A DNA stretch of 64,000 bases. Source: Zoogloea sp. (lineage in GTDB: Bacteria; Pseudomonadota; Gammaproteobacteria; Burkholderiales; Rhodocyclaceae). Shown piece after piece: positions 6,755 through 19,948 of this stretch (positions within the stretch are counted from its first letter, which is position 1; each line of letters opens with the position of its first letter). The notes under the pieces were generated by a model. The model saw only the letters and a list, made by a program, of their open reading frames with translations. It was not told the origin of the DNA and ran no database searches. Location of the stretch: positions 62,001 through 126,000 of the forward strand of contig NZ_JAKLLN010000011.1 of NCBI RefSeq assembly GCF_023150065.1. The letters are read 5' to 3'. Position numbers and translations under genes: made by a program.

Positions 6755-7815
6755 ACTCCGCTCCCCTTCCCCCCAGCCCGGTCCACGACCGGGGCAGCCC
6801 AGCCCAGCCGCTGCTGGTCGTGCGCGACCTGAAGAAGCACTTTCCGGTGCGCGGCGGCCCCCTCGAACGGACGAAGAAGTTCGTCCATGCCGTCGATGGC
6901 GTCAGCTTCTCGGTGCCCAAGGGCAAGACCCTGGGCATCGTCGGCGAATCCGGCTGTGGCAAGTCCACCACCGCCCGGCTCATCGCCCGGCTGATGCAGG
7001 CCGACTCGGGCAGCATGGTCTTCGACGGCGAGGGCGTCGATGAATTCGGCGGCATCCGCCTGAAGGAATTCCGGCGCAACCTGCAGATGGTCTTCCAGGA
7101 CTCCTTCGCTTCCCTCAACCCGCGCCTGACCATCGCCGAGACCATCGCCTACGGCCCCCGGGTGCACGGCATGCCGGCCGCCGAAGCCAAACGCCAGGCC
7201 CACGACCTGCTGGCCCGCGTCGGCCTGGCGCCGGCGCAGTTCGCCAGCCGCTACCCCCACGAGCTGTCGGGCGGCCAGCGCCAGCGGGTCAACATCGCCC
7301 GCGCCCTGGCCTTCGACCCGCGCCTGGTGATCCTCGACGAGGCCGTGGCGGCCCTGGACAAGTCGGTGCAGGCCCAGGTGCTCAACCTGCTGCAGGAGCT
7401 CAAGGCCGAGCGCCAGCTCACCTACCTGTTCATCTCCCACGACCTGCACGTGGTCCATTACATCTCCGACTACGTGATGGTGATGTACCTGGGCCAGGTG
7501 GTGGAGACGGGCCCGGTGGAGCGCATCTACGGCCAGGCGGCCCACCCCTACACCCGCGCCCTGCTGTCCGCCGTGCCGTCCATGGACCCGGACCGGCGCA
7601 CCGAATCGTCGCCCCTGGCCGGCGACCCGCCCAACCCCATCAACCCGCCCAGCGGCTGCCGCTTCCGTGACCGCTGCCCCCACGCCCACCCGGTCTGCGA
7701 AGCCCGCACGCCGGCCCTGATCGGCATCGCCGGCGAGCCCGCCCACCAGGCCGCCTGCCACCTCAACGACCCCGCCTCGGGCCACCCCGGGGCGCTTCCG
7801 GAGACGCAAGCATGA
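6751..7815 (+). CDS. ABC transporter ATP-binding protein, DppF type
   Basis: 354-residue ATPase. It has Walker A GESGCGKST, signature LSGGQRQRVNIARAL, Walker B LVILDEAVAALD and an H-loop in FISHDLHVVHYI. The oligopeptide-type C-terminal extension contains CRFRDRCPHAHPVC, a cysteine cluster typical of DppD/DppF and OppD/OppF proteins. In the Walker B region the usual DEPVSALD reads DEAVAALD; the catalytic Glu is kept. The start overlaps the permease stop by 4 bp. It works as a heterodimer with the next ATPase. Confidence 0.92.
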   Translation: MNSAPLPPSPVHDRGSPAQPLLVVRDLKKHFPVRGGPLERTKKFVHAVDGVSFSVPKGKTLGIVGESGCGKSTTARLIARLMQADSGSMVFDGEGVDEFGGIRLKEFRRNLQMVFQDSFASLNPRLTIAETIAYGPRVHGMPAAEAKRQAHDLLARVGLAPAQFASRYPHELSGGQRQRVNIARALAFDPRLVILDEAVAALDKSVQAQVLNLLQELKAERQLTYLFISHDLHVVHYISDYVMVMYLGQVVETGPVERIYGQAAHPYTRALLSAVPSMDPDRRTESSPLAGDPPNPINPPSGCRFRDRCPHAHPVCEARTPALIGIAGEPAHQAACHLNDPASGHPGALPETQA

Positions 7816-8792
7816 GCGCCCCCCTGGTATCCCTGCAGGATCTGTCCGTCCAGTTCTGCGGCCATCGCAAGGCCAGCGCCCTCAACGCGGTCAACATCGA
7901 ACTCGGCGCCGGCGAAGTGCTCGGCCTGCTGGGCGAATCCGGCTCGGGCAAGAGCGTCACCCTGCGCACTCTGCTGCGCCTGCACCCCGAACGCACCACC
8001 AAAATCCAGGGAAAGATGCAGGTGGACGGCCAGGACGTGCTCGCCCTCAAGGGCCGGGCCCTCGATCTCTACCGCGGCGGCACGGTGTCGATGGTCTTCC
8101 AGGAGCCCGGGCTGGCCTTCGACCCGGTGTACACCATCGGCCAGCAGATCACCGAGGCGATCCGCGCCCACGAGGCCGTCGGCGAAGCCGCCGCCCGCGC
8201 CCAGGCCCTGCACATGCTGGAGCGGGTGCAGATCCCCCAGGCCCGGCGACGCTTCGATGCCTACCCCCACGAGCTCTCCGGCGGCATGCGCCAGCGCGCC
8301 ATGATCGCCCTGGCCCTGGCCTGCAAGCCCAAACTGCTGCTGGCCGACGAACCCACCACCGCCCTCGACGCCACCGTGCAGATCCAGGTCCTGCTCCTGC
8401 TGCGCGAGCTGCAGCGGGAGACCGGCATGTCGGTGATCTTCGTGACCCACGACATCGGCGCCGCCGTGGAGGTGGCCGACCGCATCGCGGTGATGTACGC
8501 CGGGCGCATCGTCGAGCAGGCCGCCGTCGGCGATATCGTGCGCGCACCGCGCCATCCCTACACGGTGGGCCTGCTGGCCGCCACGGTGGGCGCCGAGCAC
8601 CGGGGCCAGCCCCTGCAGGCGGTGCCCGGCGCCCCACCGGATCTGGCCGCCCTGCCCCCGGGCTGCAGCTTTGCGCCGCGCTGTACTCACGCCAGCGAAC
8701 GCTGCCGGCGCGAGGTGCCGCCACTGACTTCGCTGGGCAATCGCGCGGTGGCCTGCTGGCACCCGGTCCAGCCTGTCGCGGAGGCCGCGTGA
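7812..8792 (+). CDS. ABC transporter ATP-binding protein, DppD type
   Basis: 326-residue second ATPase. It shows Walker A GESGSGKSV, signature LSGGMRQRAMIALALA, Walker B LLLADEPTTALD, an H-loop in FVTHDIG, and the C-terminal cysteine extension CSFAPRCTHASERC. It overlaps the preceding gene by the ATGA arrangement, and its stop overlaps the next start. The five genes together make a complete peptide-family importer; in the E. coli glutathione system GsiA the two ATPases are fused, whereas here they are separate. Confidence 0.92.
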   Translation: MSAPLVSLQDLSVQFCGHRKASALNAVNIELGAGEVLGLLGESGSGKSVTLRTLLRLHPERTTKIQGKMQVDGQDVLALKGRALDLYRGGTVSMVFQEPGLAFDPVYTIGQQITEAIRAHEAVGEAAARAQALHMLERVQIPQARRRFDAYPHELSGGMRQRAMIALALACKPKLLLADEPTTALDATVQIQVLLLLRELQRETGMSVIFVTHDIGAAVEVADRIAVMYAGRIVEQAAVGDIVRAPRHPYTVGLLAATVGAEHRGQPLQAVPGAPPDLAALPPGCSFAPRCTHASERCRREVPPLTSLGNRAVACWHPVQPVAEAA

Positions 8793-9508
8793 TGAGCGTC
8801 TTTCCCTTTGAACCCGGCCGTGGCCGGGGCGGCCTGGCCGACGACGTGTGCCGCCGCATCGCCGACGAGATCGTGCTGGGCAACTTCGCCCCCGGCTCGC
8901 GCCTCGACGAGGTCAGCCTGGCCGCCCGCTTCAAGGTATCGCGGACCCCCATCCGCGAGGCGCTCAAGCAGCTCGCCATCATGGGCCTGGTGGACACCCG
9001 GCCCAACCGGGGCTCGGTAGTGGCCGAGCTGACCGTCGACCAGCTCGACCAGATGTTCGAGGCCATCGGCGAGCTGGAGGCCGCCTGCGCCCGCCACGCC
9101 GCCCTGCGCATGACCGAGGCCGACCGGGCACGCATGCTGGAACTCCACGCCGAAGGCCGCGCCGCCATGCAGACCGGCGACATCGACCGCTACGACGCGG
9201 CCAACCTCGAGCTCCACGCCACCATCATCCGCGGCTGCTACAACCCGGTGCTCATCGAGATGGCCACCAGCCTGCGCCACCGGGTGTCGCCTTTCCGGCG
9301 CACCCAGTTCCGCAACCTGGAGCGGATGGGCGAATCCTTCGAGGAGCACTCGGTGATCGTCGAGGCCATCCTCGCCCACGACGTCGTCACCACCTACCGG
9401 GAGATGCGCTCCCACCTGCTCTCGGCCCGCAGCGCCACCAACCGCGTGGCGCCGGCCTGGGGCATCCCGTCGAACAGCCAAGCACAACTGAAGGGCGAAT
9501 CCGCATGA
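8792..9508 (+). CDS. GntR-family transcriptional regulator (FadR/FCD type)
   Basis: 238-residue regulator with an N-terminal winged helix (about residues 12-75; RTPIREALKQLAIMGLV is the recognition-helix area) and an FCD ligand-binding domain. The domain's metal-site histidines are visible in ELHATIIRG and near the C-terminus. ATG at 8792 overlaps the ATPase stop in a TGATG; an in-frame GTG one codon upstream is the alternative. It lies inside the operon between transporter and enzyme, so it probably autoregulates it in response to a small acid. Confidence 0.88.
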   Translation: MSVFPFEPGRGRGGLADDVCRRIADEIVLGNFAPGSRLDEVSLAARFKVSRTPIREALKQLAIMGLVDTRPNRGSVVAELTVDQLDQMFEAIGELEAACARHAALRMTEADRARMLELHAEGRAAMQTGDIDRYDAANLELHATIIRGCYNPVLIEMATSLRHRVSPFRRTQFRNLERMGESFEEHSVIVEAILAHDVVTTYREMRSHLLSARSATNRVAPAWGIPSNSQAQLKGESA

Positions 9509-11094
9509 AACCCATCCTCGGCACCCGGGGCGCCGTCGTCGCCTCCCACTCCCTCGCCGCCCAGGCCGGGCTCGACATCCTGCGCGACGGCGGCAACGCC
9601 ATCGAGGCGACCATCGCCGTCGCCGCCACCCTGGCGGTGGTCTACCCCCACATGACCGGCATCGGCGGCGACGGCTTCTGGCTGCTCCACGCACCGGGCC
9701 AGCCCATGCGCTCCATCGACGCCTGCGGCGCCGCCGGCGCGGCGGTCACGCGGGATCTGTACGGCAGTGTCGACAGCATCCCGTGGCGCGGCCCCCTGGC
9801 CGCCAACACCGTGGCCGGCACGCTCTCGGGCTGGGGCCTGGCCTACGCCTACAGCCAGCGCGAATGGGGCGGCCGCCTGCCCTTCGCGCGCCTGCTCGAA
9901 AGCGCCATCCACTACGCCCGCGAGGGCTTTCCAGTCACGCACAGCCAGGAGGCCAACACCCGCGCCAAGCTGGGCGAACTGCAGGGCCAGCCGGGCTTCG
10001 CCCAGGCCTTTCTGAACGACGGGCAGGTGCCGCTGTATGGCCGGCGCCACCGCTTTCCGGCCCTGGCGGCCACCCTGGAGCAGCTCGCCCGGGCCGGCGC
10101 CGACGACTTCTACCGGGGCGAGCTGGCTCGGCAGATCGGCGCCGACCTGGCCGCCGTGGGCAGCCCGGTGAGCACCGCCGACCTGGCCCGCCATCAGGCC
10201 GAGCTGAAGGCGCCCCTCGAAGTCCGCCTGTCCTGCGGCACGGTGTACAACATGGCGCCCCCCACCCAGGGCCTGGCCTCGCTGCTCATCCTCGCCATCT
10301 ACGACCGCATCCGTCAGGCCGGCTGGAGCCCCGACAGCGTGGAAGGCATCCACGCCCTGGTCGAAGCCACCAAGCAGGCCTTCATCGTGCGCGACCGGCA
10401 CGTCACCGACCCGGCGGCCATGGGCATCGCCCCCGCCAGCCTGCTCGACGACACGCACCTGGCTGCCCTGGCCGCCGCCGTGCCCCTCGACCAGGCCAGC
10501 CCCTGGCCGGCCCCCAACTCGGACGGGGACACCACCTGGATGGGCGTGGTGGATGGCGAGGGCCGGGCGGTGAGCATGATCCAGAGCATCTACTTCGAGT
10601 TCGGCAGCGGCGTGGTGCTGCCCGAGACCGGCATCTGGTGGCAGAACCGGGGCTGCAGCTTCGACCTGCGCCCGGGCCGACTGCGCAGCCTGGAGCCCGG
10701 CCGCAAGCCCTTCCACACCCTCAACCCGGCCATGGCCCGGCTCGACGACGGGCGCCTGCTGGTGTACGGCACCATGGGCGGCGAGGGGCAGCCGCAGACC
10801 CAGGCCGCCGTGTTCTCGCGCTACGTATGGGGCGGCCACGACGTCCGCTCGGCAGTGGCTGCGCCGCGCTGGCTGCTGGGCCGCACCTGGGCCGAGCAGA
10901 GCACCAGCCTCAAGCTGGAATCGCGCTATGCACCGGACGTGCTGGAGCGCCTGCGCGCGCTGGGGCACCCGGTAGAGGTGGTGGGCGACTACGACGAACG
11001 CATGGGCCACGCCGGTGCCCTGGTGCGGCACCCCGAGGGCTGGATCGAGGGCGGTGAAGACCCGCGCAGCGACGGCTGCGTGGCCGCCTGGTAA
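9505..11094 (+). CDS. Gamma-glutamyltransferase family protein
   Basis: 529-residue Ntn-hydrolase of the gamma-glutamyltransferase/cephalosporin acylase family. The proenzyme would cleave itself before Thr343 in GDTTWMGVVD, which matches the TTHYSVVD start of the E. coli small subunit. The GIGGDGFWL segment near residue 52 and the GMGGE-like TMGGEGQPQTQ near the C-terminus are family features. No signal peptide is visible, so it should be cytoplasmic, unlike E. coli Ggt. It starts in an ATGA overlap with the regulator. Likely role: splitting an imported gamma-glutamyl compound to release glutamate. Acylase activity on another amide is possible. Confidence 0.85.
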   Translation: MKPILGTRGAVVASHSLAAQAGLDILRDGGNAIEATIAVAATLAVVYPHMTGIGGDGFWLLHAPGQPMRSIDACGAAGAAVTRDLYGSVDSIPWRGPLAANTVAGTLSGWGLAYAYSQREWGGRLPFARLLESAIHYAREGFPVTHSQEANTRAKLGELQGQPGFAQAFLNDGQVPLYGRRHRFPALAATLEQLARAGADDFYRGELARQIGADLAAVGSPVSTADLARHQAELKAPLEVRLSCGTVYNMAPPTQGLASLLILAIYDRIRQAGWSPDSVEGIHALVEATKQAFIVRDRHVTDPAAMGIAPASLLDDTHLAALAAAVPLDQASPWPAPNSDGDTTWMGVVDGEGRAVSMIQSIYFEFGSGVVLPETGIWWQNRGCSFDLRPGRLRSLEPGRKPFHTLNPAMARLDDGRLLVYGTMGGEGQPQTQAAVFSRYVWGGHDVRSAVAAPRWLLGRTWAEQSTSLKLESRYAPDVLERLRALGHPVEVVGDYDERMGHAGALVRHPEGWIEGGEDPRSDGCVAAW

Positions 11095-13437: not shown

Positions 13438-14781
13438 TCAGCCCTCGCCCGTGGCGGCGAGGGCCTTGATGCGGCGGTAGAGCGTCCGCTCGCTCAAGCC
13501 CAGGCGGGCCGCCAGCGCCCGCCGTGACCCACGATGATCCCGCAGGGCCTCGGCCAGGGCCAGGTCGTCGATGGGTGCATCCAGCCCCGGCGGCGTCAGC
13601 GCCGGCGCGACGCCCGGCAACAGGGGCGCTGCCCGGGGTCTCCCCGGGTCGCGGAGTTCTTCGGGCAGATGGCGGCGCAGCAGGGTATCGCCGTCGCACA
13701 TCAGGCTGGAACGCTCCAGGATGTTGCGCAGCTCGCGCACATTGCCCGGGTAGTCATAGCCAATCAGGCAGGCCAGGGTGTCGGGGGCGATGCGCAGGCT
13801 GCGCCCCGGCGCCACCCGGGCCAGCAGCGCCTCGGCCAGCAGGGCGATGTCCTCCCGCCGCGCCCGCAGGGGCGGCAAGCCAATGGGGAAGGTGTTGACC
13901 CGGTAGTACAGATCCTGGCGGAACTGCCCCTGAGCCACCAGGGCCTGCAGCGGCCGGTGGGTGGCCGAGACCAGGCGGATGTCGGCGCGTACCAGTTCGG
14001 TGCTCCCCACCCGACGGTAGGTACCGGTCTCCAGCAGGCGCAGCAGCTTGACCTGCATGGACAGGGGGATGTCCCCCAGCTCGTCGAGAAACAGGGTGCC
14101 GCCGCTGGCCGCCTCGATGAGCCCCTGCTTGCGCCCGGTGGCGCCGGTGAAGGCGCCTTTCTCGTGCCCGAAGAGTTCGCTCTCGAAGAGGTTCTCGGTG
14201 AGGCCCGAGCAGTCCACCGCCACGAAGGGGCCGCTGGCGCGCCGGCTGGCGTCGTGGATGGCCTGGGCCACCAGCTCCTTGCCGGTGCCCGACTCCCCCT
14301 GCAGCAGCACCGCAGCCTCCGACGGCGCCACCCGGGCCACCAGCTCCAGCATGGCCCGGAAGGCCGGCGCCCGGCCCACCAGCCCCTGGCTTCCCGCCAG
14401 GCCCCGGGCCACCGGCAGGGGCTCCAGGCGCTCGATGAAGTAGGTGATTTCGCCACCGGCGTCCCGCACCGGGGAGAGCTCGATGTTCTCGTAACGCTCG
14501 CCGGCCGGGGTGTGATGGAGGTGCACCACCCGCTCCCGCTGGCCCGAGGCCAGACTCTGGGCCAGCGGGCAGGACTCGCCCGCCTGATCGCAGGGCACCG
14601 GGTAGCGGTGGGAGACCTCGTAGCAACGGCGGCCGATCAGGTCGTCCGGCTCGCCACAGTTGGCCCGATAGGCGGCGTTGGCCGCGACGATGCGGTAGTG
14701 CCGGTCGCACAGGATGTGGGGCTCGGGCAGGCTCTCCAGAAAGGAGATGAGCTCGGGCAGGGGGCGGAGGGGCGTGTTCAT
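13438..14781 (-). CDS. Sigma-54 dependent activator with cysteine-rich PAS domain
   Basis: 447-residue bacterial enhancer-binding protein. The PAS domain (about residues 10-120) holds a cluster at Cys53, Cys64 and Cys71, with additional Cys25 and Cys42. Then comes an AAA+ domain with Walker A GESGTGKE (162-169), the sigma-54 contact loop GAFTGA (209-214) and Walker B FLDE (231-234), and a Fis-type helix-turn-helix at the C-terminus. It is divergent from the bd oxidase operon, whose promoter is of the sigma-54 type, so it is the obvious activator. The cysteines could bind a metal, Fe-S cluster or sulfur species; that part is inference. Confidence 0.92.
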
Positions 14782-14921
14782 GGACGCGTCAGGGGCTTCA
14801 AGGCCCGTTCAGCCCGGGACGGCGCTCCCGGAATAGCCGGGCGGCAGGCGCCATGGCCTGACCGCAGGCGCTGCCACACACGCCAGAAGTACGCCAGACC
14901 ACTGCCAACCGCGCACGGATA

Positions 14922-14947
14922 CTGCCACAGATCTCCTTCCGTGGCAG
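14922..14947. promoter_or_regulatory. CTGCCAC-N12-GTGGCAG palindrome, likely activator site for cyd
   Basis: Perfect 7-bp inverted repeat centred about 90 bp upstream of the predicted cyd transcription start. Another CTGCCAC lies at 14871-14877 and a CTGCCA at 14902-14907. The same word pair recurs at 18179-18220 in front of the Rieske gene. Position and recurrence fit an enhancer for the divergent sigma-54 activator. Confidence 0.65.
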
Positions 14948-14999
14948 AGCCCCACGCCCGCCCCCTTGAAAACACAGGCTTTTCTGGCACCCCATGGCC

Positions 15000-15015
15000 T
15001 GGCACGGCTCTTGAT
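15000..15015 (+). promoter_or_regulatory. Sigma-54-type promoter of cydPABX
   Basis: TGGCACG-N4-TTGAT has the GG and the downstream G in sigma-54 phase. The -12 element reads GA in place of the usual GC, a weakness. The same form, TGGCATG-N4-TTGAT, appears in front of the Rieske gene at 18289-18304. Transcription would begin near 15025, about 26 bases before cydP. Confidence 0.6.
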
Positions 15016-15050
15016 ATGTCTGAGACACATTCCGGATTTCTGCCAGCGCC

Positions 15051-15233
15051 ATGCCAAGCACCGACCACCGCCTCCGCCGCCACCTCGCCTGGGTCATCGT
15101 GCTCAAGCTCGTACTCCTCACTGCCCTGTGGTGGGGCTTCATCCGGGATGCACGGGTCAGCGTGTCCCCCCAGGACATGTCCCGGCAGTTCGCCCCCCAC
15201 CCCATCGCCCAAGGAGCCCCCCATGGTCAGTGA
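15051..15233 (+). CDS. cydP: Cytochrome bd oxidase small subunit CydP
   Basis: 60-residue protein with one membrane helix ([20 protein letters not shown]) after a basic N-terminus RRHL, followed by a short polar tail. This is the pattern of CydP, the putative small subunit found before cydA in betaproteobacteria. No strong ribosome-binding site is visible. Its end overlaps the cydA start by 11 bp in another frame. It probably helps assemble or stabilise the oxidase. Confidence 0.8.
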
Positions 15234-16779
15234 ACAACTGGTCGACCTTTCACGGCTGCAGTTCGCCGCCACTGCCCTGTATCACTTCCTGTTCGTGCCG
15301 CTCACCATCGGCATGGTCTGGATGCTGGTGATCATGGAGTCGGTATATGTGATGACCGGCAAGCCTCTCTACAAGGACATGACCCGCTTCTGGGGCAAGC
15401 TCTTCGGCATCAACTTCGCCCTGGGCGTCACCACCGGCATCACCCTGGAGTTCCAGTTCGGCACCAACTGGGCCTATTACAGCCACTACGTCGGCGACAT
15501 CTTCGGCGCGCCCCTGGCCATCGAGGGGCTGATGGCCTTCTTTCTCGAGTCCACGATGATCGGCCTGTTCTTCTTCGGCTGGGACCGCCTCTCCCGCCGC
15601 CAGCACCTGCTGGTGACGCTGCTGATGGCGGTGGGCACCAACCTGTCGGCCCTGTGGATCCTGATCGCCAACGGCTGGATGCAGAACCCGGTGGGCGCCG
15701 AGTTCAGCTACGTGACCATGCGCATGGAGATGACCGACTTCTGGGCCCTGGTCTTCAACCCGGATGCCCAGGCCAAGTTCGTGCACACCGTCTCGGCGGG
15801 CTACGTGACGGGCGCCATGTTCGTGCTCTCCATCTCGTCCTGGTATCTGCTGCGGGGGCGGGACGTGGAGTTTGCCCGGCGCAGCTTTGGCATTGCGGCG
15901 GCCTTCGGCTTCGCGTCGGTCTGTTCGGTGATCGTGCTGGGCGACGAATCCGGCTACACCGTGGGCGAAGCCCAGCAGACCAAGCTGGCCGCCATGGAGG
16001 CCATGTGGGAGACCGAGCCCGCCCCGGCGCCCTTCAACCTCATCGCCATCCCCAACGAGGCGGAGATGAAGAACGACTTCGCCATCGAGATCCCCTGGGT
16101 GATGGGGATCATCGGCACCCGCTCCCTGGACACGCAGATCCCCGGCATCAAGGAGATCAAGGTACGCAACCGGGCGCGCATCGTGTCGGGGATCGAGGCT
16201 GTCACTGCCCTGGATGCCCTGCGCCGTAGCCCCGGGGATGAAGCCGCCCGGGCGGCGTTTGAAGCGCACAAGGCCGACCTGGGCTTCGGGCTGCTCCTCA
16301 AGAAGTACGTGACCGACTTCCGGCAGGTGACGCCGGAGATCATCGGGAAGGCCGTCAATGACACCGTCCCCCGGGTGGCACCCCTGTTCTGGAGCTTCCG
16401 CCTGATGGTGGCGCTGGGCTTTGCCATGCTGCTGCTCTTCGGGTTGGCCCTGTGGCATTCGGTGAAGGGCGATTTTGCCGACAGGCCGTACCTGCTGCGC
16501 GCGGCGCTGTATGCCCTGCCACTGCCCTGGGTTGCCTGCGAGGTGGGCTGGTTCGTGGCCGAATACGGCCGCCAGCCGTGGACGATCTACGGTGTGCTGC
16601 CCACCCATCTGTCGGTGTCCACCCTCAGCGTGAACAGCCTGTACGGATCGCTGGCCGGCTTCGTCGGCTTCTACACCCTGCTGCTGATCGTCGAGATGTA
16701 CCTGATGGTGCGCTTTGCCCGGCAGGGCCCCGGCAGCCTGGGCACCGGCCGCTATGCCAACGAAGCCGCCCACGCCTGA
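15223..16779 (+). CDS. cydA: Cytochrome bd ubiquinol oxidase subunit I
   Basis: 518-residue quinol oxidase subunit that carries haems b558, b595 and d in the inner membrane and reduces O2 to water without proton pumping. AAGGAG precedes the ATG. Haem ligands are recognisable: His near residue 21 (ALYHFLF), His in [10 protein letters not shown] and Met in [10 protein letters not shown]. The quinol loop is present and the GRQPW motif lies in [13 protein letters not shown]. Length matches the E. coli-type enzyme. High oxygen affinity and resistance to sulfide, NO and cyanide are known for this family. Confidence 0.97.
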
Positions 16780-16803
16780 GCCCTTTTCGCGGAGACCGAA
16801 ACG

Positions 16804-17943
16804 ATGTTCGACTATGAAACCCTCAAGATCGTCTGGTGGCTGCTGGTCGGCGTGCTGCTGGTGGGCTTTGCCATCATGGACGGCCACGACATGGGCGTGG
16901 GCACCCTGCTGCCCTTCGTCGGCAAGGACGACACCGAGCGGCGGGTGGTGATCAACACCGTGGGCCCCCACTGGGACGGCAACCAGGTGTGGTTCATCAC
17001 CGGTGGCGGCGCCATCTTTGCCGCCTGGCCGCTGGTCTATGCCACCGCCTTCTCGGGCTTCTACTGGGCCATGCTGGCCGTGCTGTGGGCCCTGTTCTTC
17101 CGCCCGGTGGGTTTTGACTACCGCAGCAAGATCCACCACCCCACTTGGCGCAAGACCTGGGACTGGGGCCTGTTCGTGGGGGGCGCGGTGCCCCCGCTGA
17201 TCTTCGGGGTGGCCTTCGGCAACCTCTTCCTGGGCGTGCCCTTCCAATTCGACGACCACCTGGTGTCCACCTACACCGGCAGCTTCTGGGCCCTGCTCAA
17301 CCCCTTTGCGCTGCTGTGCGGCGTGGTGTCGTCGGCCATGATCACCTTCCACGGTGCGATCTACCTGGCCCACCGCACCCAGGGCGAGCTCCAGTGGCGG
17401 GCCCTGCGGGCCGCCGGCTTCTTTGGCGGGCTGATGCTGCTGGCCTTTGCCGCAGCCGGCCTGTGGCTGTGGATGGGCGTGCCGGGTTACGTGATCCAGT
17501 CCGCCGTCGATACGGCCGCCCTGCCCAACCCCCTGGGCAAGACGGTGGTCCGGGAGGCCGGTGCCTGGTTCGCCAATTACCAGCGCCAGCCGGCCACCAT
17601 CGCGCTGCCGGCGCTCGCCTTTGCCGGCGTGCTGGGCGCCCAGGCGCTGGCCCGCTCGGGTCGCAGCATGGCGGCCTTCTGGGCCTCGTCCCTGGCCATC
17701 GTCGGGGTGATCGGCACGGCCGGCGCCGCGCTCTTCCCCTTCATCATGCCCTCGTCCCTGGACCCGAACGCCAGCCTCACCGTGTGGGACAGCGTGTCGA
17801 GCCGGCTCACCCTCAACATCATGCTGTGGGCCACCCTGATCTTCATGCCCATCATCATCCTTTACACCGGCTGGGCCTACCGGGTGATGGGGGGCAAGGT
17901 CACCGCCGCCTACGTCCGCGAAAACAACCACTCGGCCTACTGA
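16804..17943 (+). CDS. cydB: Cytochrome bd ubiquinol oxidase subunit II
   Basis: 379-residue partner of CydA with about nine membrane helices. The N-terminal segment [21 protein letters not shown] and the [11 protein letters not shown] segment are characteristic. CydB has no haem but is needed for assembly and for the oxygen channel. It lies 24 bp after cydA with a GGAG element before the ATG, in the same transcript. Confidence 0.97.
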
Positions 17944-17957
17944 ACGGAGACAACATC

Positions 17958-18080
17958 ATGTGGTACTTCACCTGGATTCTCGGCATCGGCTTTGCGGTGC
18001 TCCTGGCCATCCTCAACGCCCTGTGGGCCGAACACGCCGAGGCCCGCGCGGCAAGCAAGGGGCCGGGCAAGGTTACGTAA
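17958..18080 (+). CDS. cydX: Cytochrome bd oxidase small subunit CydX
   Basis: 40-residue protein, MWYFTWILGIGFAVLLAILN followed by ALWAEHAEAR, an exact CydX/YbgT-type sequence: one membrane helix, the WYF start and a charged tail. GGAG lies 8 bases before the ATG. CydX binds CydA and stabilises the haems. It starts 14 bp after cydB and ends this operon; no clear terminator follows. Confidence 0.93.
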   Translation: MWYFTWILGIGFAVLLAILNALWAEHAEARAASKGPGKVT

Positions 18081-18178
18081 GCCCCGCCGCCCGGGCCGGA
18101 CGTAAAAAGCCCGCCCCCCTATCGCCCTCTTCTGTCTCGGCCTGCACCGAGCCCCCCGGCGGAAGACTGCCAGCCGCG

Positions 18179-18220
18179 CTGCCACTGCCACCAGCACTGC
18201 CACACAGCCTCACGTGGCAG
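18179..18220. promoter_or_regulatory. Clustered CTGCCAC/GTGGCAG sites before the Rieske gene
   Basis: Three CTGCCAC words (18179, 18185 and 18197) and one GTGGCAG (18214-18220) lie in 42 bp. The last two form a palindrome with a 10-base spacer, centred about 105 bp upstream of the predicted start of transcription. The same words are in the cyd promoter, so the same activator probably binds both. Confidence 0.65.
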
Positions 18221-18288
18221 CGCCAAAAATCTCCGTCCTGGCAAACCAAGCCCATGATTAAAAAGAAAAATATCTGCAACCACTCCTC

Positions 18289-18304
18289 TGGCATGGATGT
18301 TGAT
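18289..18304 (+). promoter_or_regulatory. Sigma-54-type promoter of the Rieske operon
   Basis: TGGCATG-N4-TTGAT has the same layout as the cyd promoter at 15000-15015, including the unusual GA at -12. Transcription would start near 18314, about 45 bases before the Rieske ATG. The 278-bp gap after cydX contains this promoter and the upstream sites and no further gene that I can support. Confidence 0.6.
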
Positions 18305-18358
18305 ACGGACAGGACGCACCCCATACCCCAACACCCTTGCCCCACGGAGAACACAACA

Positions 18359-18976
18359 ATGGCCCAGAACCCTTCCGCCACCTGCAACACCCTCCCGTGC
18401 CAGCCCTCGCGTCGCCAGCTCCTGCTGGCCACCGCCGGCGCGGGCGGGGTGGCCGCCATCGCCACCGCCATCCCCTTCGTCTCCAGCCTCACCCCCTCCG
18501 AGCGGGCGCTGGCGGCCGGCGCCCCGGTGGAGGTGGACATCGACAAGCTCAAACCCGGCGAGATGATGGTGGTGGAATGGCGCGGCAAGCCCGTGTGGAT
18601 CCTCCACCGCAGCCCCGAGATGCTGGCCAGCCTGGCAAAGCTTGACCCTCAGCCCGCCGACCCGGGCTCCGAAGTCCTCAGCCAGCAACCCGAATACGCC
18701 CACAACCCCCACCGCTCGCTGAAGCCCGAATACCTGGTGGCAGTGGGCATCTGCACCCACCTGGGCTGCTCGCCCTCCAGCGCCTTCACCCCCGGCAACC
18801 CGGCCCTGGGCGCCGACTGGCCCGGCGGCTTCCTGTGCCCCTGCCACGGCTCCACCTTCGATCTGGCCGGCCGCGTCTTCAAGAACAAGCCGGCTCCCAC
18901 CAACCTGGAAGTGCCGCCCCACCAATACCTCTCCGACAGCCGCCTGCGCATCGGTGACGACGGCAGCCCCGCCTGA
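18359..18976 (+). CDS. Orphan Rieske iron-sulfur protein (PetA-like)
   Basis: 205-residue Rieske protein of the bc1 complex type. It has an N-terminal twin-arginine signal-anchor (SRRQLLLATAGAGG, about residues 17-45). The 2Fe-2S ligands are in CTHLGC (about residue 132) and CPCHGS (about 160), followed by a PAPTNLEVPPH segment. No cytochrome b or c1 gene is near, and it sits downstream of cydX with its own sigma-54-type promoter. It may replace the housekeeping Rieske subunit under certain conditions, or serve another quinol route. GGAG lies ahead of the chosen ATG. Confidence 0.88.
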   Translation: MAQNPSATCNTLPCQPSRRQLLLATAGAGGVAAIATAIPFVSSLTPSERALAAGAPVEVDIDKLKPGEMMVVEWRGKPVWILHRSPEMLASLAKLDPQPADPGSEVLSQQPEYAHNPHRSLKPEYLVAVGICTHLGCSPSSAFTPGNPALGADWPGGFLCPCHGSTFDLAGRVFKNKPAPTNLEVPPHQYLSDSRLRIGDDGSPA

Positions 18977-18988
18977 AGCCACAGCATC

Positions 18989-19300
18989 ATGGATCTCTCC
19001 TCCCGTCATTCCCCCCAGAGGCACCCCGACCCCGGCTATCGCCACCTGTCGCTCCTCACCGGCGTCGTGGTGGCCCTGCTGCTGACCTTCTTCCCCGACG
19101 TGGCCCGAACCACCCGGGGCGCCGCCGACCCCATCGCCGCCACCCTGCTGCTGTGGGCCATGACTGCCGGCTTCGTGGCCGGTGGCGTGCTCCCCCTGCC
19201 CCTGCCGGTGCGCCTGCGCCCCCTGGCCTGCCGCATCCTGTCGAGCAGCACCTGCCTGGGCAGCCTGGTGCTGGCCGTGGTGCAGGTCGCCACCCACTGA
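18989..19300 (+). CDS. YbgE-like cyd-operon membrane protein
   Basis: 103-residue protein with three hydrophobic stretches (about residues 21-37, 46-65 and 82-100). The LLLWAMTAGFVAGGVLP segment resembles the LLMWAVCAG segment of YbgE, a small protein usually encoded in cyd operons. It starts 12 bp after the Rieske stop and belongs to that transcript. The resemblance is by eye, so another small membrane protein is possible. Confidence 0.55.
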   Translation: MDLSSRHSPQRHPDPGYRHLSLLTGVVVALLLTFFPDVARTTRGAADPIAATLLLWAMTAGFVAGGVLPLPLPVRLRPLACRILSSSTCLGSLVLAVVQVATH

Positions 19301-19309
19301 GCCCGGGCC

Positions 19310-19948
19310 ATGTACTTCCGCCAGTTTCTCGACCCGGACAGCGGCATCCTCAGCTACCTCGTCGCCGACGAGGCCAGCCGCCAGGCCTTCATCATCGACC
19401 CCGGCCCCGACACCTGCCAGTCGGTGGTGCTGCGCGCCCTGCTGGACGAACGCCGGCTGCAGCTCACGGCCATCCTGCTCACCCACATCCACGGCGACAG
19501 CGCCGACATGCTGGGCTGCCTCTACCCCGGCGTCCCCCTGCATGCCGGCGCCGCCAGCCACGGGCGCTACCCCTGGGCCGCCCTCCAGGACGAAGACCGC
19601 ATCCCCTTTGCCGGCAGCACCCTCCGCGTCATCGCCACGCCGGGCCACACCCCCTGCAGCATGAGCTACCTGTGGCAGGACCGCCTCTTCTGCGGCCACG
19701 CCCTGCTGCCCGGCACCTGCAGCCGCGCCGAAGACGGTGACTGCGACCCCGGCACCCTCTTCGACTCGGTGATCCGCCGCCTCTTCCTGCTCCCCGACGA
19801 AACCCTGGTCTTCCCCGGCCAGGACGCCGGTGGCCGCAGCGTCTCCACCATCGGCGAAGAACGCCGCCACAACCCTGCCTTCCTCGCCCGCTCACGGGAT
19901 GTGTTCGTGACGGCGTTCCGCCCCTACCCCCAATACCCCTCCCCCTGA
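19310..19948 (+). CDS. ETHE1-like metallo-beta-lactamase-fold hydrolase with altered ligands
   Basis: 212-residue protein laid out like persulfide dioxygenase ETHE1. The LLTHIHGDSADMLG motif keeps His59, His61 and Asp63 but has Ser64 where the family has His. His113 (TPGHTPCS) is kept. The residue equivalent to the iron-ligand Asp is His130 (FCGHALL), and the late PAHD histidine is Gln171 (FPGQD). The C-terminal STIGEERRHNP matches ETHE1. It follows the Rieske and YbgE-like genes with a 9-bp gap, linking it to the bd oxidase regulon. Activity could be persulfide oxidation, an altered hydrolase, or lost. It overlaps the convergent LysR gene by 25 bp. Confidence 0.8.
   Translation: MYFRQFLDPDSGILSYLVADEASRQAFIIDPGPDTCQSVVLRALLDERRLQLTAILLTHIHGDSADMLGCLYPGVPLHAGAASHGRYPWAALQDEDRIPFAGSTLRVIATPGHTPCSMSYLWQDRLFCGHALLPGTCSRAEDGDCDPGTLFDSVIRRLFLLPDETLVFPGQDAGGRSVSTIGEERRHNPAFLARSRDVFVTAFRPYPQYPSP

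Follow-up and report, generated by a model that had tools for sequence, protein, structure and literature searches.

A FisR-type activator and sigma-54 promoters predicted to switch on a sulfide-tolerant respiratory branch in Zoogloea

Introduction

The locus described here raises the question of whether one sigma-54 activator governs two neighbouring respiratory transcription units and, if so, which signal it answers. It lies in a stretch of 64,000 nucleotides (hereafter the window) that comprises positions 62001-126000 of contig C22 in a 5.2 Mb Zoogloea genome assembly (251 contigs, 97.85% complete). An activator gene on the minus strand is followed on the plus strand by cydP-cydA-cydB-cydX, encoding a cytochrome bd oxidase, and, after a 278-bp gap, by genes for a Rieske protein, a YbgE-like protein and a protein of the metallo-beta-lactamase (MBL) fold. 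The original prediction, made from these letters alone, placed a cytochrome bd oxidase, an orphan Rieske protein and an ETHE1-like protein under the command of the activator, and read the set as protection against low oxygen, sulfide or nitric oxide (NO). The gene set is present, although its composition had to be corrected to the two units given above. We argue that the locus is very probably a FisR regulon, in which FisR and sigma-54 would switch on a sulfide-tolerant branch of the respiratory chain.

FisR was reportedly described in Cupriavidus pinatubonensis JMP134 by Li et al. in 2017 (Mol Microbiol 105:373). In the accessible parts of reviews it is presented as a sulfur-responsive sigma-54 activator with three conserved cysteines, and one of these reviews attributes its sensing of reactive sulfur to disulfide and tetrasulfide links that the cysteines form with one another (PMC9774590). 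The window activator is likewise a sigma-54 activator with three such cysteines, and is predicted to respond to sulfur.

Results

The activator is, by its sequence, a member of the FisR family

A sigma-54 activator with a GAFTGA loop had been predicted to lie divergent from the first of two promoters, and this was confirmed by its domains: a PAS-type (PAS_4) domain at the N-terminus, a central sigma-54 AAA+ domain and a C-terminal helix-turn-helix (HTH) of the Fis type, which is the domain layout of FisR. Over its full length the protein is 53% identical to a protein of Cupriavidus metallidurans CH34 (locus L276), whose best match in the window genome is in turn the window activator (469 bits), the runner-up reaching 244 bits in the AAA+ and HTH part alone. 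The CH34 gene is divergent from a gene of the persulfide dioxygenase (PDO) type, followed by one of the sulfide:quinone oxidoreductase (SQR) type. The PDO-type product resembles the dioxygenase portion of Blh proteins (NF040641, E 2.5e-116, below the cut-off) and the ETHE1 structure 4chl (E 3.9e-29), and the SQR-type product gives a mitochondrial-type SQR match (E 7e-93). Another relative, at L215, has the same PDO/SQR arrangement, with a sulfur-transferase/SQR fusion.

The PAS domain is strongly conserved. The cysteines of the CH34 protein are residues 53, 64, 71 and 191 only, and Cys53, Cys64 and Cys71 carry identical numbers in the window activator; we take these to be the three cysteines of C. 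pinatubonensis FisR as well, the numbering having been read in C. metallidurans only. Relatives were compared in an 80-locus set, kept from 175 FisR relatives, to which 20 from other genomes of the order and three plasmid or chromid records were added to give 103. Every one of the 103 has Cys53, His58, Cys64 and Cys71, although one of the two search patterns had preselected Cys53 and His58 (neither had preselected Cys64 or Cys71); His87 and His89 are likewise invariant. Because of the relationship to the CH34 protein with its PDO and SQR neighbours, and of the four residues shared by every relative, the activator is assigned, on sequence, to the FisR family. Orthologues of 75-80% identity occur in 17 other Zoogloea genomes, with a fragment in an eighteenth (G018), so that, counting that of the window, FisR is found in 19 of the 23 Zoogloea genomes compared. 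These genomes are mutually related, several are drafts and some are incomplete; the 80-locus set includes many of the same Zoogloea species, and counts from the two comparisons overlap.

Membership of the family bears on the signal. An activator of this kind could drive both units through sigma-54 and nevertheless have a PAS domain that senses oxygen, NO or redox state by way of a metal or Fe-S site built from the conserved cysteines and histidines. The invariance of His58, His87 and His89 would suit such a site, the predicted targets are respiratory, and no close SQR was found in the window genome. Moreover, the accessible part of a study of Acinetobacter baumannii (PMC7315123) describes a FisR that, unlike the window activator, has no regulatory cysteines and still answers sulfide, so that the cysteines alone do not define the signal. 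Set against this, relatives adjoin PDO and SQR genes (L215 and L276), PDO-like genes occur at 32 and SQR-like genes at nine of the 80 loci, some FisR clusters contain rhodanese and SLAC1-type genes, and three conserved cysteines of FisR are reported to form disulfide and tetrasulfide links (PMC9774590, in the part available). We consider a different signal improbable. The evidence favours sulfide or persulfide over low oxygen or NO, since the activator belongs by sequence to the FisR family, has Cys53, Cys64 and Cys71, and has relatives that adjoin PDO and SQR genes. Of the three signals first proposed, sulfide thus gains from the identity of the activator, and nothing was found that points to NO or low oxygen.

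The two units share a rare and conserved promoter form

Two promoters of the form TGGCAYG-N4-TTGAT had been predicted, one before each unit, and both are where they were placed. They are the only matches in the window, where 0.04 would be expected and none of 100 shuffles had two. With one further base (TGGCAYG-N4-TTGATW) the pattern has just two matches in the whole 5.2 Mb assembly, both in the window, and for this reason the promoter form can serve as a signature. The GG of the -24 element and the G of the -12 element are correctly spaced in both, and the genome has one match for rpoN.

Within the genus, cydA genes at least 88% identical to that of the window were classed as FisR-type and those at 73-75% as paralogous. 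The promoter precedes all 16 complete FisR-type copies, 217-224 bp upstream of cydA, and none of the four paralogous ones; there are also two partial copies, of which one starts inside the gene. The paralogue in the window genome (L243, G000:C174:364181-365698), at 75% identity, has no FisR-type promoter, and similar paralogues are present in G011, G016 and G019. The strict promoter was found before 16 of 19 spare Rieske genes, a seventeenth (L250) having one mismatch and the remaining two (L259 and L263) lying directly behind cydX, and before none of the 11 housekeeping petA genes that were examined from a list of 21. In five drafts (G002, G004, G006, G014 and G015) the cyd unit is on a different contig from FisR and its promoter is kept. 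Across the 23 genomes the longer pattern has 44 sites, 34 of them in the FisR module, and its reversed control has one match. Of the other ten, five were inspected: three precede phenol-hydroxylase-like genes and two are seemingly unrelated.

The three phenol-hydroxylase-like operons carry TGGCACG-N4-TTGATA (G004:C52:56024, G008:C396:4396 and G009:C18:293; loci L057, L061 and L062), and the assignment was tested against families for one of the three genes, which matches PF02332.

In the 80-locus set, where dinucleotide shuffles served as controls, TGGCAYG-N4-TTG was found in 34 of 43 cyd upstream regions (0.08 in shuffles) and 29 of 47 Rieske upstream regions (0.12). Fourteen of the 18 Rieske genes that lack it lie directly behind cydB or cydX of a cyd unit. 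The promoter is present in only four of 30 MBL upstream regions (0.14 in shuffles), a low count that would be expected where MBL is a downstream gene of a unit. Some 12 bp beyond the GA, where the sigma-54 start is expected, a TGATAT-like sequence is frequent in the cyd promoters of this set.

GA is the usual form of the -12 element

Both window promoters have GA in place of the canonical GC at -12, which had been named as the weak point of the original prediction. This doubt is not borne out, and GA as the mark of a false promoter was rejected, since GA predominates among relatives: the 34 cyd promoters of the 80-locus set comprise 30 with GA, four with GT and none with GC, and the 29 Rieske promoters 22 with GA, six with GC (five Thauera loci and one Azoarcus locus) and one with GT. 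The PDO promoter of C. metallidurans, TGGCACG-N4-TTGAG, likewise has GA. MBL promoters of three Gallionella-type loci (L149, L156 and L170) read TGGCNCG-N4-TTGC, and in Pseudoalteromonas a poorer match, TGGCATA-N4-TTGTA, was read by eye. Taken as sigma-54 promoters, these sequences indicate that a single regulon employs GA, GC and GT at -12, with GA as the usual form, and GA also occurs at another probable sigma-54 promoter type, that of the phenol-hydroxylase-like operons. In the literature covered, from which subscription papers were mostly absent, no report was found that promoters of this kind usually have GA at -12.

The departure of TTGAT from canonical TTGC, together with its resemblance to a sigma-70 -35 element and to half of an FNR box, might suggest that the units have sigma-70 or FNR-type promoters whose likeness to sigma-54 is incidental. 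We regard this as very unlikely. A -10 element (four or more of six positions) stands at the right spacing in three of 46 promoters against 8.9 in shuffles, the second FNR half, ATCAA, is missing at both window sites, six of 29 orthologous Rieske promoters have the canonical GC, and the -24 element is conserved together with the upstream sites described below. A sigma-54 promoter with a variant -12 element remains the preferred reading. In Cupriavidus necator, a G-to-A change 210 bp upstream of cydA2B2 is described as raising expression by about 500-1000 fold and is ascribed to a new sigma-70 promoter (PMC10164946, in the part available). In most Zoogloea the GA lies 210-211 bp from cydA; a correspondence between the two positions is only a lead, drawn from distance.

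Half-sites and an IHF-like site precede the promoters

Palindromes of CTGCCAC and GTGGCAG had been predicted 90-105 bp upstream of the promoters. Both are present, with arms separated by 12 bp (14922-14947) and 10 bp (18197-18220) and with centres at about 92 and 107 bp from the predicted sigma-54 start, and they are the sole two in the window (expected 0.00). The palindrome occurs at two more places in the genome (contigs C122 and C174), and a reversed control pattern has two matches of its own, so that the palindrome is not a signature by itself. Its conservation with the activator, set beforehand as a test, failed for the literal form and held for the half-site. The exact palindrome was found in none of the 17 other Zoogloea regions scanned with that of the window (one of these, L052, has no FisR upstream region) and was rejected as the operator; CTGYCA is conserved instead.

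In 77 regions upstream of FisR there are 290 CTGYCA half-sites in either direction, against 27.6 (maximum 41) in base shuffles, which were used for all upstream sites. Of the 206 that read CTGYCA, 173 fall within an interval that runs from 10 bp inside to 50 bp outside the FisR start. Direct repeats are chiefly spaced by 10 bp (27 regions), 21 bp (23), 22 bp (13) or 12 bp (12), which would place the half-sites on one face of the helix. The corresponding place in C. metallidurans contains CTGCCA three times, and TGGCAG and TGACAG once each. Sites resembling that of integration host factor (IHF; eight or nine of nine positions) lie between half-sites and promoter in 36 of 57 regions, against 2.7 in shuffles. 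Half-sites, IHF-like site and promoter together have what is, on the pattern of motifs, the classical layout of a sigma-54 promoter.

Both units are linked to and inherited with FisR

Neighbouring genes were scored by tblastn matches at thresholds that we set. Among the 80 loci, the stretch fetched around FisR contains cydA in 43 and a Rieske gene in 47, and at least one of cydA, Rieske and PDO-like genes in 64. The arrangement varies within Zoogloea, where FisR is divergent from the cyd unit in some genomes and from the Rieske unit in others. The spare Rieske gene occurs in exactly those 19 of the 23 Zoogloea genomes that have FisR (Fisher P 0.0001), and FisR-type cydA occurs in 17 of the 19 genomes with FisR (in one as a partial copy only) and in none of the four without it (Fisher P 0.002).

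The many sigma-54 activators of the genome (20 matches) leave room for FisR to control one unit while the other is merely nearby and answers to a different activator. This is the least likely of the alternatives, since each unit occurs beside FisR without the other and in both cases half-sites and promoter are kept: FisR and Rieske without cyd in the fetched stretch at L047, L048, L050 and L051, and cyd without Rieske at L038. Control of both units by one activator, as first proposed, is thus strongly supported by conservation of promoter and half-sites, by co-inheritance and by promoters kept when cyd and FisR are on different contigs.

FisR is also found near cydA in Gallionella/Sideroxydans-type loci and in Pseudoalteromonas. 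The PDO genes at L099, L101, L122 and L136 are 61-63% identical to that of C. metallidurans, and at L041 and L043 FisR is divergent from an extra unit encoding a secreted protein of no assigned family and a SLAC1-type protein. At L037 the cyd and Rieske units are separated by genes (7507-9717) for a secreted protein of 165 aa with no assigned family, a rhodanese-like protein and a SLAC1-type channel. No family support was found for the labels 'thioredoxin-like' and 'NifX-like' given to neighbours in FisR clusters. Genes of three other kinds recur near FisR among the 103 loci: those resembling a tetrathionate reductase-family octaheme cytochrome (TIGR04315; L204, 11713-13323; 24 loci), CcoG (TIGR02745; L211, 9434-10846; 11 loci) and a 119-aa protein with no family match (L220, 11518-11874; 35 loci). 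The promoter form of the module is also found at L141, L145, L153 and L164 with a gene taken to encode an octaheme cytochrome.

Products of the two units

The coordinates of genes and sites are given in Table 1. The Rieske protein is of the bc1 type, scoring above the cut-off of TIGR01416 and containing both cluster-binding motifs (CTHLGC and CPCHGS, read by eye). The genome has a second Rieske gene on contig C251, beside genes for cytochrome b and cytochrome c1, whose product is 67% identical to that of the window; as the window gene has no bc1 partner genes alongside, we read it as encoding a spare subunit. The YbgE-like protein scores far under the cut-off of TIGR02112.

The MBL-fold protein resembles ETHE1, in which the iron ligands are His79, His135 and Asp154. 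At these positions the window protein has His, His and His, whereas in the linked MBL relatives each is kept in 28 of 31 aligned sequences, Asp at the third likewise in 28 of 31. The second metal site is mostly lost in these relatives (Asp in 8 of 31, His in 1 of 31), and at the late His position (His in 25 of 31) the window protein has Gln. Because of the altered iron ligands it is called PDO-like, not PDO. Two weaker relatives of Cupriavidus PDO are encoded elsewhere in the genome, on contigs C77 and C185 (41% and 34% identity).

Two flanking genes were tried as parts of the module and rejected. The methyltransferase gene upstream of the activator adjoins FisR only in the window and at L038 among the 18 Zoogloea regions, and the LysR gene downstream has no close relative in the other 17.

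Table 1. Genes and sequence elements of the putative FisR regulon in the window
Feature	Coordinates	Strand	Basis
FisR-type sigma-54 activator	13438..14781	-	Pfam PAS_4, Sigma54_activat, HTH_8; GAFTGA read in sequence
Putative FisR sites upstream of cydPABX: CTGCCA half-sites, with those of the palindrome	14871..14947	.	Half-site enrichment in relatives
Sigma-54 type promoter of cydPABX, TGGCACGGCTCTTGATA, GA at -12	15000..15016	+	Pattern match; core TGGCACGGCTCTTGAT at 15000-15015
cydP, cytochrome bd oxidase small subunit	15051..15233	+	NCBIfam NF045611, 53.1 bits (cut-off 29.6)
cydA, cytochrome bd oxidase subunit I	15223..16779	+	PF01654; nearest NCBIfam model NF011677, under its cut-off
cydB, cytochrome bd oxidase subunit II	16804..17943	+	PF02322; TIGR00203 above cut-off
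cydX, small subunit	17958..18080	+	TIGR02106, 49.5 bits (cut-off 31.6); PF08173
Putative FisR sites upstream of the Rieske gene: half-sites CTGCCA (4) and TGGCAG (1), with those of the palindrome	18167..18220	.	Pattern match; sequence read
IHF-like site CAAGCCCATGATT, 8/9 positions of YAANNNNTTGATW	18247..18259	+	Read by eye
Sigma-54 type promoter of the Rieske unit, TGGCATGGATGTTGATA	18289..18305	+	Pattern match; core TGGCATGGATGTTGAT at 18289-18304
Spare Rieske [2Fe-2S] protein, bc1 type, TAT signal	18359..18976	+	TIGR01416, 208 bits (cut-off 97.4); PF10399
YbgE-like small membrane protein (Cyd operon family)	18989..19300	+	PF09600, 29.4 bits (cut-off 25.2)
PDO/ETHE1-like MBL-fold protein, altered metal ligands	19310..19948	+	4ysb, E 5e-37; human ETHE1 4chl, E 1.6e-23

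Discussion

The regulatory scheme that best fits these observations would begin with the entry of sulfide and the appearance of persulfide or polysulfide in the cell. These would modify Cys53, Cys64 and Cys71 in the PAS domain of FisR and so turn on its AAA+ ATPase. Seated on CTGYCA sites that are in phase with the helix and lie, for the cyd promoter of the window, 53-129 bp upstream, and assisted by IHF bending, FisR would activate the sigma-54 polymerase waiting at the TGGCAYG-N4-TTGAT promoters, and both units would be made. The CydPABX oxidase would then sustain respiration while sulfide blocks other oxidases, the spare Rieske protein would most likely replace the damaged bc1 subunit under sulfur stress, and the PDO-like protein might act on persulfides. 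We also put forward, more tentatively, a wider proposal, in which a Rhodocyclales-type FisR may command a whole sulfide-proof branch, with a bd oxidase that has CydP and a Rieske protein that swaps into bc1 once sulfide or persulfide has damaged its housekeeping counterpart; the GA/GT class of -12 element may be kept by selection and prevent transcription as long as FisR falls short of full activity, and the linked MBL proteins may be a new PDO branch without the vestigial second metal site.

Several observations weigh against the FisR regulon as proposed. Expression, FisR binding and the sulfide response are predicted from sequence. Orthology with the CH34 protein is proven in one direction, as the forward search covered a plasmid and chromid collection only (four records matched, C. 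metallidurans at the top). The genomes of one genus are not independent, so that the co-inheritance P values are too small and should be taken as indicative only, and four of the six genomes without FisR or FisR-type cydA are only 72-92% complete. The promoter is missing before one partial cydA, that of G012 (83-84% identity), and nine of the 43 cyd upstream regions of the 80-locus set have no strict promoter within 600 bp: two of these (L132 and L115) have a site with one or two mismatches, in L135 a strict site lies farther off, five are loci of Gallionellaceae, Nitrosomonadales or gammaproteobacteria, and at L105 no good site was found. The window PDO-like protein, to judge by its ligands, may be an inactive or altered dioxygenase. 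Finally, the SQR part of the L215 fusion found nothing in the window genome at E 1e-10, an empty answer that proves little; if there is no close SQR, Zoogloea would need another source of persulfide.

Parts of this scheme are already known, namely FisR itself, the sulfide-refractory bd oxidase and the induction of cydAB by sulfide. The window activator shares domain layout, half-sites and a GA-type promoter with its C. metallidurans relative. It differs from C. pinatubonensis FisR in its targets, which there are reported to be sulfide-oxidising genes and here appear to be a bd oxidase, a spare Rieske protein and a diverged PDO-like protein. In A. baumannii, according to the accessible part of PMC7315123, FisR is a sigma-54 activator too, divergent from a sulfide-detoxification operon (PDO1, SQR and TauE), and sulfide induces cydAB; that part contains no assignment of cydAB to FisR. 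It also describes CydAB as refractory to sulfide, citing Korshunov et al. 2016 for Escherichia coli. The window oxidase belongs to the same family as that of E. coli and differs in its putative control by FisR and sigma-54, and its tolerance is a prediction.

A second Rieske gene is present in Rubrivivax gelatinosus. One is also described in Mesorhizobium loti (PMC6256036, in the part available). These, like the Zoogloea copy, exist beside a housekeeping gene; what sets the Zoogloea copy apart is that a sulfur sensor appears to govern it jointly with a bd oxidase. No report of FisR control of cydAB or of a Rieske gene was found in the literature covered, which left out most subscription papers and so does not amount to proof of novelty.

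The regulon would link terminal oxidase choice to a sulfur sensor that is already known, and makes visible in the DNA a likely route from sulfide to cyd induction. It suggests a role for spare Rieske subunits that can be tested, and provides a form of the sigma-54 -12 element that departs from GC and is conserved in nature. FisR loci of this kind span Zoogloea, Thauera, Azonexus, Dechloromonas and others, and many of these genera are known from wastewater and sediments where sulfide occurs. If the proposed control is correct, it would allow such bacteria to keep breathing when sulfide poisons their usual respiratory chain.

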